A stretch of 64,000 nt of DNA from contig NC_015865.1 in assembly GCF_000221185.1 (NCBI RefSeq), positions 62,001-126,000 of the forward strand, written 5' to 3'. Below are positions 5,302 to 36,227 of the stretch, piece after piece. This stretch comes from Thermococcus sp. 4557. GTDB lineage: Archaea; Methanobacteriota_B; Thermococci; Thermococcales; Thermococcaceae. The notes below the pieces were generated by a model that saw only the letters and a program-made list of their open reading frames with translations, was not told the origin of the DNA and ran no database searches. Both the position numbers and the translations under genes were made by a program. How positions within the stretch are numbered: position 1 is the first letter of the stretch; each line of letters starts with the position of its first letter.

Positions 5302-8300
5302 TCAGCGCCGTCTGTAGAGATAGACGGCTATAAGCACCAGCAGGGCTCCAAGGAGGGCGTAGTAGGGCCAGCTGGCCCCTCCTGGGGTGCCCGGCCCAGT
5401 TGACGTTCCGGTTGTGCCCGTTCCAGGGGTTTCCGTCGGACTTGTCGTTGTCGTCTCGCTCGTCTGGTTGCCACCTGCCGATGTCTGGGTCTCCACCTCC
5501 TCCGCCACGGCGAAGAGGGAAAGCCCCGGAACGCTGGCCCGATAGTAGGCGTATCCCGCGTCCTCGTACTCGAAGACGGGGCTGAACTCCTCCCACGTCC
5601 CCGAATAGCGGAGCAGGGTAACGTTCTCGGTGCTCGCGTTGTTCTCCCTTAACCAGTCCTTTGAAACGCGGAAGTGGAGCGTCACGTTCTCGACCGACCA
5701 GTTCTCCGGATGGGTGACGTTGAAGAGGGCGTAGACGGTGTAGCCCTCAACCTCGCCGGGCTTCTGGTAGACCCCGAGGACCCCCTCAATGTCCCTGCCT
5801 GCCGTAAACGTCAGCATGTAGAGGTCCGTGGAGAACTCGAAGAGCCCAAACCTGCCCTCCCTCAGCTCCACGAGGAGGCCGTCCACGGGGTTTGGTCTCT
5901 TCGGTCTGGTGACCTCCAGCCCGAACTCCCTCTCAACGCTCCCGTTTCCGTAGGTGCATTCAACGGCGAGGGTGTAGTTGCCGGGCTCAAGGCCGTCCGT
6001 CCTAACCAGTTCTCCCCCGCCGTTTCTCCCGTCGAGCCTCCAGCTGAGCAGGCACGGGGAGGTGCTCATTATTCTGACCACGCCTCCAACCGGGACGCTC
6101 GTGCTGCTCACGTTGATCTCCGGTGCCCTTCCCTTCCTGGCTATCAGAACCTCGTTTCCGGAGGAGACCACCGATGCGTTGGAGCCTTCAACGCTCACCG
6201 ACGTGTCGCTTAGCGGAACTCCGAAGGCGGGCTTTATCTCGATGCTTCCGTTGTAGTGCCCCTTCCTGGTTATGTTCGCCCTTAGCAGCTCCCCGTCTAT
6301 CGCCATCGAGAGTTCTATTTCCTCGTCCTCCGGGAGCGCGTTGAGCTTTCCGGTCGCGGCTATTGTGAGGACGTTTCCCCTTATCGAGACGTTTGCCCCT
6401 TCGAGCTCTTCGAAGTACGCCCCGGCGAAGAGCTTCGCGTTCTCCTCGTCCCTGAAGAAGGCGAAAATGGCTTTGGCAGCTTCCGCGGTTGGCTTCATCT
6501 CTATGAAGGCAGTGCCTTCCACGTCAGCGCCTTTCCTGCCTCCTGTAACGTTTACCCTCATCCACTCGAGGGTCCTGTTGAAGAGGGGTCCCACAGCAGT
6601 GGTTGGCGTTAGGACGGTGTACCTCGCCTTGTAAACGTCCAGTTCCCCAAAGGTCAGGGAGACGTTGGCCACACCGGTTCCGTTGCCATCGCTTCCTCCG
6701 AAGATGAGGGCCCTGTCAGCCTTCTCGACTTCCACCGTGAAGTTGGCCGGCGGGTCGAGCACGTAGATGGTTCTTGAGCCTGGGACCGGGGCGAGGAAGA
6801 GGTACGTGAGGAACTGCGACATGTCGAAGGTGTAGGATACAATGGCCCCGACCTCTCCACCAACTTTTTTGAGATAGTCCTTCTGTTCCTGCTCCGCGAG
6901 GCTCTTGAAGTACTTGCCCTTCTTTATCTCGTTGAGTACAAGCGTCTTCGCCTGCTTCTTCAGGGCCTTTTTGACCGCCGCCGTTCCCAGCGAGCCTACC
7001 GCTCCCTGAGTTCCCTCAACATCGCCCGTGTAAACTGATTTGGCCAGCTTTGCGAGCTCGTAGTAGGTGCTCTTGTCGCTCACCTCGATTATGGACTCGA
7101 TGAGGAGAACCTGGAGGTCCTCGTCGAGGGCTATTGCCTTCACCAGCTTCCCGAGAACCGCCGCTCCTTCCCCAACGGAGAGCTGGTTGAGGTTCATCAG
7201 CTCGCCGTAGTAGGTCCTGTCCATGCCGTAGTTCTCCTCAAGCCGGGTGAAGGTGTCTATCCCCACTGGTGCCATAACCGTCTCGTTGCTTGCGAGGAGC
7301 GCGTTGTCGACCTCTTCCCTCCTTGCGCTCGCGTTTATGGACTCAAAGCTCTCCGATTCGGTCTGGAAGTCTATCGTCTCCACGAGGTTGACCACCTTAA
7401 GGATGGCGTTCGCGAGCCCCATGACTATCGTGTCCGAGGGGACGTCTATGCCGAAGAAGTCGAGGAGGGCCTCTATCGACCTCGATACGATGCGGAACTC
7501 GTTGCCCACCAGAGAGGGCCTGGCACCAACGATTATCTGATAGTGGGGTATCACCTTGTTGGGCTCCCTGCTGTCGTCCGCTATGGCCCTCATCGTGAAG
7601 TCGGGAGGTATTATGTGGTACCACTTGTAGCCCTCCCCGGGTCCGTAGACGCCGTCGGCGTAGTAGTCGTAGTAAATGTTGCCGTTCGTGTTGTGGAGCG
7701 TCAGGTAGGTTCTGCCGTTCTTCACGGCCGTTACCGTGACGTCTATTGGGTTCATGTGGACAGTCTGAACTTGGAATGTCTTGTTGAGGGCCTTGACGGG
7801 CGTTTCCTTGTAGTTCAGGCTCGGGGTGTAGTATTCCTTCCCATCAACGGTGTAGTAGAAGGTCGCGCTGGTCATGTAATTCCCGCTGTAGTTCACCGGC
7901 GGAATGATGGCCGGGGGTACGTCGGGCCACCAGTTCATGTAGATGTCCAGTCCTCCCTTTTTCTTCCCGACTTCCGCCACCCCCAGAATGCCGACGTTGT
8001 TTCCAGCGTCCACGAGGGCCGAGCTGCCCGGGAATATGTAGGCGTCCATCCCCTTGTAGAGCTTCGTTCCCTCCCCGCGCTCGGAGATGTGGTCGGTTAC
8101 CGTGATCATGGTCACGTTGGCGTCCCTGTCCCCCACGTTCGTGTATTGCAAATCGAAGTGGTGACTTTCGGATGCCTCGACGTCGTTGTCGCCATCCCCG
8201 TCGTAGGGGGGAGTGTTGTGGCAGAACTCCGGATAGCTCTGGCAGTACGCCAGTGTGTACGGATACATCACGTATCCCGTTATCTCGAAAACTGGCCCGA

Positions 8301-34594: not shown

Positions 34595-34627
34595 GTCGAA
34601 TTTATCTCTCAAATTTTTGGGCGAATT
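34595..34627 (+). repeat. Left terminal inverted repeat
   Basis: Begins GTCGAATTTATCTCTC and ends GGGCGAATT. It differs from the right copy at positions 5, 7 and 28 only. Confidence 0.75.
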
Positions 34628-35545
34628 ATTATGCTTAGTTATAGTAATTTTTGTGTTTTCAATTTAGATTGTTATTTGCATTCATTATATATTGTGCATT
34701 TAATTCTTTGCTTATTTGGTCTAAAAATTACTTATTAAAATATTAAAAAATTTGGATTTTTGACTATCTTTTAGTGCAATTTGCACAATTATTTTGTGTG
34801 GGACAAAATGTGTGGCTGTCATATACCGGCGAGTGAGTTTGTTCCTGCCAGTGGACTTGGGACAGTGGCAGTAGCCCTCACGGCTGGATTGACACTACCT
34901 TTAATTGTAACCAATTTTTGGTCTTTAGAAGCCAGACCTTGTAGATAAAATCCCCTGATTCAGAGAAGGTGTCCATAGTTGTGCCCCACTACCAGTTGGC
35001 TGGGGTAATTAGTTGCTGCTATATGTGCCGCTTAGTTTGTGTTGTTCCAATCATCCCCGTACGCGGGTAGTTGCATTTGTAATTACGACAGTAAAATCCT
35101 CCACGGTGAGTTTGGTGCAAGTTGATGGGGTCATGACGCTCACACGGCCTCTAGTAGGTGGATCCTTAATTCGCAGTGGACTCTGTGGATGGGCTGGTGC
35201 AGTTCGCAGGAACCTAAAACTCATAAACTTGGGGCATGTAATGAATGCCCCTCTGCAGTTTATCCCTCGACCCCTCTGTTTCTGTCCTTCTTAATGTTCT
35301 TGTATGTTCACAGGTTTTAGATATAAGGCACATTATAGGAAAATTAAATAAAGTAGTAAATACTAACAAAGGGCGACAGTGGGGTCGCGGGTAGTTATTT
35401 GCCGGTGCCAGTGCAGGTGTGCCAAGTCCTTAGGCTCCGGAGGATTCTGGATTGTGGGGATACTCATATAAAGGCCCCCCATGAATACGCCTCGTCGTGT
35501 TGAATACGGCGCTGCTTTTGTACTCACACCGGAGGTGTCCAACGA
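34628..35545. other. Long non-coding stretch inside the TIR element
   Basis: About 918 bp without a convincing gene. The first 170 bp are AT-rich; the rest is nearer 48 percent GC. It holds two weak short frames: a 46-codon hydrophobic peptide at 34808-34948 (MCGCHIPASEF start, no clear ribosome site) and a 93-codon frame at 35013-35294 without family resemblance. A small CCCG/CGGG hairpin lies near 35057-35068. It could encode a structured RNA or be decayed coding DNA. Confidence 0.45.
35465..35473 (+). promoter_or_regulatory. Promoter of the element gene
   Basis: CATATAAAG is a TATA box with predicted start near 35495, leaving about 50 nt of leader to the ATG at 35546. Confidence 0.5.
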
Positions 35546-35896
35546 ATGAAAGATACCAAGACCCCCAAATGCACCGCCCCTGGATACAAGTGCCTGGGGC
35601 CGCTGGCCGAGGAGATAATCCTCGCGAAGCTTGAGCGGGCCTCCCCTGTGCGTGATTCAATCAGCCCGTTCTTCCGAGAGAACTACAGGACCAAGCACCT
35701 TGAGTTTGTCATACCGTTTAAAGCCCTCACCAGTATGGAGAAGCATGTCCTCAAGGAGGCGGGATATCCCGAGAGGCTTGTGCGGGGAGACGAGAATGCG
35801 GGACTGGCTAAGGCCTTTGTTATCGATGTGCGGGCGATTGAGGCCACGTCCCCAGGGCTGGCGGAGGCAATACTCTCAGCGTATAGGGGGCTGTGA
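35546..35896 (+). CDS. Hypothetical cargo protein of the TIR element, 116 aa
   Basis: A 116-residue soluble protein not recognised as any family. The N-terminus carries two cysteines (KCTAPGYKCLGP), followed by a helix (AEEIILAKLERASPVRDSI) and a mixed region containing ALTSMEKHVLKEAGYPERLV. GGAGGTG lies 9 nt before the ATG, a TATA box at 35465 and a hairpin after the stop, so this is an organised transcription unit. Unlike the flanks of the element its composition is close to that of the host. It could be a DNA-binding or accessory protein of the element; there is no direct evidence for either. Confidence 0.72.
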   Translation: MKDTKTPKCTAPGYKCLGPLAEEIILAKLERASPVRDSISPFFRENYRTKHLEFVIPFKALTSMEKHVLKEAGYPERLVRGDENAGLAKAFVIDVRAIEATSPGLAEAILSAYRGL

Positions 35897-36194
35897 TCGG
35901 CAGTTGCTGCTTACATGGGTTGACGATACGTGCGGGTGTGTGTTGCTCCCGCACATTTCTAGTATCTTACCTGTGTGTCCCATTTGGGCTGTATGGTTGT
36001 ACACATTTTGCCAGATTTTACTTTTTTTGGCAGTAGATTTTTTGGATTTCTTAACTTCTTAAATGGTAAAAATATAAGTCATAATAAATTTCCAAAATTT
36101 TTATTATATGCAATTTTAAAACTAACCACTCGAATATGAAGTTTGTATTAATAAAGAAATACAAGTACTTTTAATTACGTTTTTGAAAAGTAAG
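35897..36194. other. AT-rich right arm of the TIR element
   Basis: About 300 bp with no gene. After the hairpin at 35930 the sequence becomes strongly AT-rich, mirroring the left arm. No other feature was seen. Confidence 0.5.
35930..35954 (+). terminator. Hairpin downstream of the element gene
   Basis: GTGCGGG and CCCGCAC form a perfect 7-bp stem with an 11-nt loop, starting 33 bp after the stop codon. Possible terminator or RNA 3' end stabiliser. Confidence 0.5.
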
Positions 36195-36227
36195 AATTCA
36201 CCCAAAAATTTGAGAGATAACTCCGAC
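36195..36227 (-). repeat. Right terminal inverted repeat
   Basis: Reads GTCGGAGTTATCTCTC on the minus strand from 36227 inward. It matches the left copy at 30 of 33 bases. Confidence 0.75.

Follow-up and report, generated by a model that had tools for sequence, protein, structure and literature searches.

Within the window, i.e., the whole stretch of 64,000 nucleotides of Thermococcus sp. 4557 DNA analysed here, a unit of about 1.6 kb is enclosed by inverted ends and AT-rich arms and holds a single small gene, which raises the question of whether these ends delimit a mobile element or belong to the chromosome at this place. A preliminary description of the locus proposed a non-autonomous transposon, a MITE with cargo or a minimal selfish element with a structured RNA. 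The features on which it was based were readily recovered: the inverted ends (TIRs; 34595-34631 / 36191-36227) span 37 nt with 89% complementarity and are separated by 1559 nt, the arms inside them display 20% and 22% GC against 56% for the window, a 116-codon ORF is preceded by a Shine-Dalgarno sequence and a TATA-like box, and no transposase was found. Beyond that first reading, the unit contains an internal dif site and an internal conserved block (BLK, 34894-34922). The features considered first are the following:

34595-34631, plus strand: left TIR (core 34599-34627), inward-facing, about 0.7 kb from dif, from the order-wide model R2
34640-34800, no strand assigned: left AT-rich arm, 20% GC
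34894-34922, plus strand: BLK motif AC[CT]ACCTTTAATTGTAACCAATTTTTGG, about 300 bp inside the TIR
35316-35343, no strand assigned: dif site, with left arm 35316-35326 (TTTAGATATAA), spacer 35327-35332 (GGCACA) and altered right arm 35333-35343 (TTATAGGAAAA)
36010-36180, no strand assigned: right AT-rich arm, 22% GC
36191-36227, minus strand: right TIR (core 36195-36222), inverted partner of the left TIR, from the order-wide model

The locus almost certainly corresponds to the chromosomal dif region, the XerA site for chromosome-dimer resolution. A minus-strand block at 35316-35337 displayed 2 mismatches to a Thermococcales-type dif core (0 expected by chance), and the complete site is constituted by 11-bp imperfect inverted repeats and a 6-bp spacer, as in the Thermococcales consensus, its right arm TTATAGGAAAA being a divergent variant. 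Using a model built from 20 loci, one dif site (two strand hits at E<=1) was recovered in the window genome (G000, one 2.01-Mb contig). The coordinates of this site (97.3 kb) and of orc1/cdc6 (1376 kb) place the two 732 kb apart by the shorter way round, or 131 degrees; dif is single-copy and, judged from this distance, probably lies in the terminus region. The identification relies on the core match, the dif model, the orc1/cdc6 distance, the published Thermococcales site (PMC2958812) and the single PF00589 tyrosine recombinase in the window genome, which is consistent with XerA. In Thermococcales, dif was identified and XerA recombination was shown in vitro by Cortez et al. (2010; PMC2958812), where conserved AT-rich dif flanks of about 23 bp are described, together with flanking inverted repeats as possible partner-binding sequences, and an FtsK homologue is stated to be absent from archaea. 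In the window, the dif region is flanked by purB and by the DUF134/queD genes, and the order purB - dif region - DUF134-queD is common to most loci examined in Thermococcales.

The distribution of the inverted ends follows that of dif. In a whole-genome blastn search, each arm matched its partner at E 3e-6 and a third copy was absent from the genome; when the element was compared by blastn with 94 Thermococcales genomes, matches were found in 46, covering the ends and also short conserved blocks. All 94 genomes were then searched (E<=1e-3) with models of the TIR and of BLK (AC[CT]ACCTTTAATTGTAACC...) that use sequence only. All 68 TIRs sharing a contig with dif were located within 3 kb of it and faced inward; they come from 47 genomes and lie at a median distance of 715 bp. 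A further 4 TIR hits fell on dif-less contigs of fragmented assemblies. BLK gave 61 hits in 48 genomes, every one of them no more than 1.2 kb from dif. Mean GC between +50 and +200 of the TIR was 0.16-0.20 (67 TIR instances, 47 loci), which defines arms of about 150 bp, and the TIR-to-BLK spacing had a median of 309 bp (n=46). Since TIR and BLK matches occur genome-wide only at dif and the low GC is shared, the inverted ends and AT-rich arms belong to the conserved features of dif regions and not to a transposon. Searching Thermococcales with the TIR and the protein, as the preliminary description advised, did uncover relatives, but every TIR and BLK match was at dif wherever dif could be placed. 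These comparisons show a frame of inward-facing TIRs of about 29 bp, AT-rich arms and usually BLK, a frame that is passed on vertically and occurs nowhere but at dif. A role of this frame as a chromatin boundary or terminus marker is plausible.

Variation in the frame was also observed. The largest spacing seen was that of L065 (genome G051), with a TIR 2.67 kb from dif. Both TIRs are present at the dif locus of genome G024, which we take to be T. kodakarensis. In genus g3, presumably Pyrococcus, dif was present in loci L114-L120, no TIR or BLK was detected by these models, and purB is no longer adjacent; the frame may have been lost there or be too diverged.

Inside the frame, in 20-23 of the 94 Thermococcales genomes, the segment that starts in the middle of the dif right arm (TTATAT|) and runs as far as BLK or the TIR is replaced by an element of about 1.2 kb that carries its own dif half-arm and, in the fuller copies, a nuclease-like gene together with the 116-aa gene (P116), both genes being found at dif only, on the same side and in the same orientation. 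Its edges are defined by comparison with element-free relatives: between locus L039 and element-free L038, identity is 92.6% as far as TTATAT in the dif right arm, is lost beyond it and resumes at 91% at the first BLK bases; the pairs L060/L111 and L042/L110 agree in this left edge and have BLK as their right edge, and in L097/L129 the left edge is common and homology resumes where no BLK was detected. The element-free alleles hold their own unrelated 240-700 bp in this interval; therefore, the event is a replacement and not an insertion. A single dif, and not a pair, is present at each element locus. Fuller copies of the element, with the nuclease-like gene, exist and are bounded by the dif right arm and by BLK or the right TIR. 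No match to the element DNA was found among phages and plasmids, no relative of the nuclease in phages, plasmids and viral contigs, and none of P116 in viral contigs; with 115 genomes of the phylum also included, no relative was found outside Thermococcales dif loci.

Two observations concern the dif arm itself. In the element-free loci L043, L051, L106 and L108, the presumed T. kodakarensis locus among them, TTATATGACAA is the native dif arm, and these are the same 11 nt as the arm borne by the invading element, a likeness that may stem from shared ancestry or from convergence. In L122 and L123 (G022 and G025), P116 lies beside a dif right arm of consensus sequence and the nuclease is present only as a C-terminal remnant, which suggests that the dif arm was repaired or re-converted after invasion.

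Sequence divergence further distinguishes the element from its surroundings. Between L039 (g1) and L093 (g5), the element is 88.6% identical and purB 73.4%; synonymous sites of purB are saturated in this pair (ps 0.88), against dS values of 0.38 for the nuclease and 0.48 for P116. Between L039 and element-free L038, identity reaches 95.7% in purB and 95.1% in queD. The purB pairs of the window with L033 and of L039 with L038 were discarded from the dN/dS analysis, as they gave impossible values (dN>2), most likely because the reading frame slipped when the gene was extracted. From these identities and dS values it follows that the element crossed genera and recently reached at least one lineage, a horizontal spread into the same site of element-free relatives as is characteristic of homing elements. 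A horizontally moving, dif-specific element is very probably present.

In the fuller copies, a 261-aa ORF is located directly before P116 and starts about 23 bp from the dif spacer. Residues E177, D186, E197 and K199 are invariant in 6 aligned members and form a PD-(D/E)XK-like motif (E-x8-D-x10-E-x-K); an open gene with the complete catalytic motif, of a predicted nuclease class, is thus present in some copies, as in homing elements. The ORF is intact in G038, G088, G073 and G042, broken in G087 and G041, and reduced to a remnant in G081, G077, G022 and G025. Searches in Pfam, NCBIfam, PHROGs, PADLOC and PDB sequences gave no significant match for the nuclease, fold searches with the nuclease and with P116 gave no match at E<=0.001, and weak hits to DpnII-MboI, the best at 0.035, fell on the catalytic region. 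Since families, PDB sequences and folds provided no significant match, the assignment as a nuclease relies on the motif, together with a structural model of moderate quality (pLDDT 69.8, pTM 0.76). Weak nuclease-like hits in ORFs of about 380 aa were rejected as chance, the one inspected being, as we read it, a threonine synthase. In L039 (7739-7800) and similar loci, the nuclease ORF starts about 25 bp downstream of GATATAA in the dif left arm, a sequence that looks like an archaeal TATA box. Binding of XerA at dif might control the nuclease gene.

The window itself carries P116 with its own signals, in a segment that differs from an element-free relative:

35339-36188, plus strand: segment differing from element-free relative L037 (G044), a nuclease-less element descendant; its right limit in this lineage is uncertain
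35465-35474, plus strand: TATA-like box CATATAAAGG, upstream of P116
35531-35537, plus strand: Shine-Dalgarno sequence GGAGGTG, upstream of P116
35546-35896, plus strand: P116 gene, 116 aa, surviving gene of the dif element, under purifying selection

Between the window and L037, an identity of 91% stops at +17, in the dif right arm, and resumes at 85% at +860, at the right TIR. The window and its relatives L033-L036 have the altered dif right arm TTATAGGAAAATTAAATAAAGT in common, and CATATAAAG at the TATA-like box is identical in all of them (4/4 relatives aligned). No nuclease remnant was detectable in these five loci and P116 is kept. The window copy is a nuclease-less descendant of which only P116 is left; the history of this lineage is less clear, given that the remnant is undetectable and the right boundary is the TIR, not BLK. 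The structured RNA that had been suggested for this locus found no support in Rfam, where the best hit (MIR530, E 0.28) was at chance level and far below the cut-off.

P116 homologues were found in 23 of the 94 Thermococcales genomes, beside dif wherever the contig includes dif, the sole exception being a short contig without a placed dif (G085), and in all loci whose layout was compared the gene lies towards DUF134, always in one orientation. Omega values of 0.10-0.40 across pairs (0.19 for the window and L033) indicate that P116 is still under purifying selection. A frameshifted P116 was observed in L034 (G023; 7402-7742), a close relative of the window, and the gene is intact in the three others. 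The window protein is only 32-48% identical to P116 of other groups; in a tree that is poorly resolved at depth, the g1 sequence L095, a long branch, groups with g4 (support 98/99). Nothing significant was found for P116 in Pfam, NCBIfam, PHROGs, PADLOC and PDB sequences. Its predicted structure (pLDDT 86) has an alpha-bb-alpha-bb-alpha arrangement, and about half of the top 50 PDB matches in the fold search were LAGLIDADG enzymes, the best of them at a non-significant E of 0.63, so that this likeness of the model serves as a lead only. Possibly, P116 is retained as a DNA-binding or immunity partner.

The best explanation for the locus, to which we assign a probability of roughly 0.7, is a conserved dif frame together with an element that overwrites half of dif, presumably by homing. 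The comparisons show a dif-specific, horizontally moving replacement with a fixed left boundary and repeated decay of the nuclease gene with P116 kept; that the nuclease would drive the movement by homing is a prediction to which we give even odds. In such a process, the nuclease would cut dif regions free of the element, and repair templated by the donor would bring the element into the cut chromosome, the conserved dif core and BLK being the places where the conversion tracts end. The half-arm supplied by the element would allow XerA to go on using dif, and the nuclease would decay later, with the 116-aa gene retained. More tentatively, and at somewhat less than even odds, we propose a selfish homing element that targets dif, attacks intact dif and spares its host by means of the replacement half, with BLK as its right border and the order-wide frame possibly serving as a boundary or loading site. 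The frame may constitute a terminus boundary or a loading site for chromosome-organising proteins.

Passive allele replacement would explain the same junctions without any nuclease: the dif-BLK segment would be swapped between species by DNA uptake and ordinary homologous recombination, for which the conserved dif and BLK at the junctions could provide the homology, and the two genes, always on the same side and in the same orientation, would be ordinary host genes tied to dif. However, the patchy occurrence and the repeated decay of the nuclease gene are typical of selfish endonuclease genes and not of a needed host function, and we consider this explanation possible but less likely. Regarding the frame, each TIR with its AT-rich arm could act as a transcription terminator for the convergent neighbours purB and DUF134, as the TIRs are located about 60-130 bp beyond the ends of these genes and archaeal terminators are T-rich. 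Nevertheless, the inward direction displays no T bias (T 0.407, A 0.415; T>A in 33/67 arms), which disfavours a plain terminator role, and the 29-bp motif is found at dif only, making this reading improbable. Quite improbable as well is the integration at dif, by host XerA, of an element that has a dif-like attachment site and no integrase (IMEX): the left boundary inside dif, an altered right arm resembling a hybrid attachment site, the single tyrosine recombinase in the genome and the precedents of LME-1, GGI and CTXphi are in its favour, but two flanking dif-like sites are expected after Xer integration and each element locus has one (the window genome, one in all), the resident DNA between dif and BLK has been replaced rather than moved aside, and phage, plasmid and viral collections contain no relatives; the single dif and the replacement are what disfavour it. 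Finally, a TIR-bounded non-autonomous transposon or MITE, as suggested by the 37-nt inverted ends and AT-rich arms, retains a negligible probability, since the ends and arms occur at dif alone, in one locus per genome with no TIR pair elsewhere and with flanking genes conserved across the order, both TIRs are kept in the element-free relatives L037 and L038, and neither copies or empty sites at varied loci nor a target duplication were found.

The preliminary description had itself stated that the same sequence at the same place in relatives would make it ordinary old DNA, and a single locus, flanked by the same genes in most of the order, is what was encountered. Its observation is confirmed, the transposon reading of the TIR unit is rejected, and the selfish-element reading is partly upheld for the inner gene: the 116-aa gene survives from a horizontally moving element, although the boundaries of that element differ from the TIRs. 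Much of Thermococcales shares the TIR/AT-arm/BLK frame, which in the genomes searched occurs only at dif; it provides concrete DNA sites and thereby a handle for finding proteins that mark or insulate the archaeal replication terminus. T. kodakarensis, whose dif has both TIRs, is a genetically tractable host for direct tests of the frame and the element.

Among known systems, a TrmBL2/SMC domain boundary has reportedly been published at the dif of Thermococcus kodakarensis, and a special chromatin state at this site would fit the conserved AT-rich arms seen here. Free-standing homing endonucleases are encoded by genes located beside a conserved, usually single-copy target, with a patchy occurrence, a decay cycle and conversion of flanks, and the dif element resembles such non-intronic homing in these respects, the conversion of flanks being a predicted one. 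Conversely, its target is a recombination site and not a gene, and it combines a PD-(D/E)XK-motif candidate nuclease with a co-transferred 116-aa gene. With the Thermococcales Xer/dif system (PMC2958812), the locus shares the 11-6-11 site, its single copy and its location away from orc1/cdc6; the distant inward TIRs, the AT-rich arms, the BLK frame and the invading nuclease element were not found in the main-text passages compared here. Known dif parasites work via the Xer recombinase, and an element with a nuclease-like gene that overwrites half of dif would represent another route. With IMEX such as CTXphi, TLCphi, GGI and LME-1 (PMC5357621, PMC9765430), the element shares dif parasitism, a dif-like half arm and the lack of an integrase of its own; it differs from them in leaving one dif, in replacing the resident DNA, and in its size of about 1.2 kb with a nuclease-like gene.
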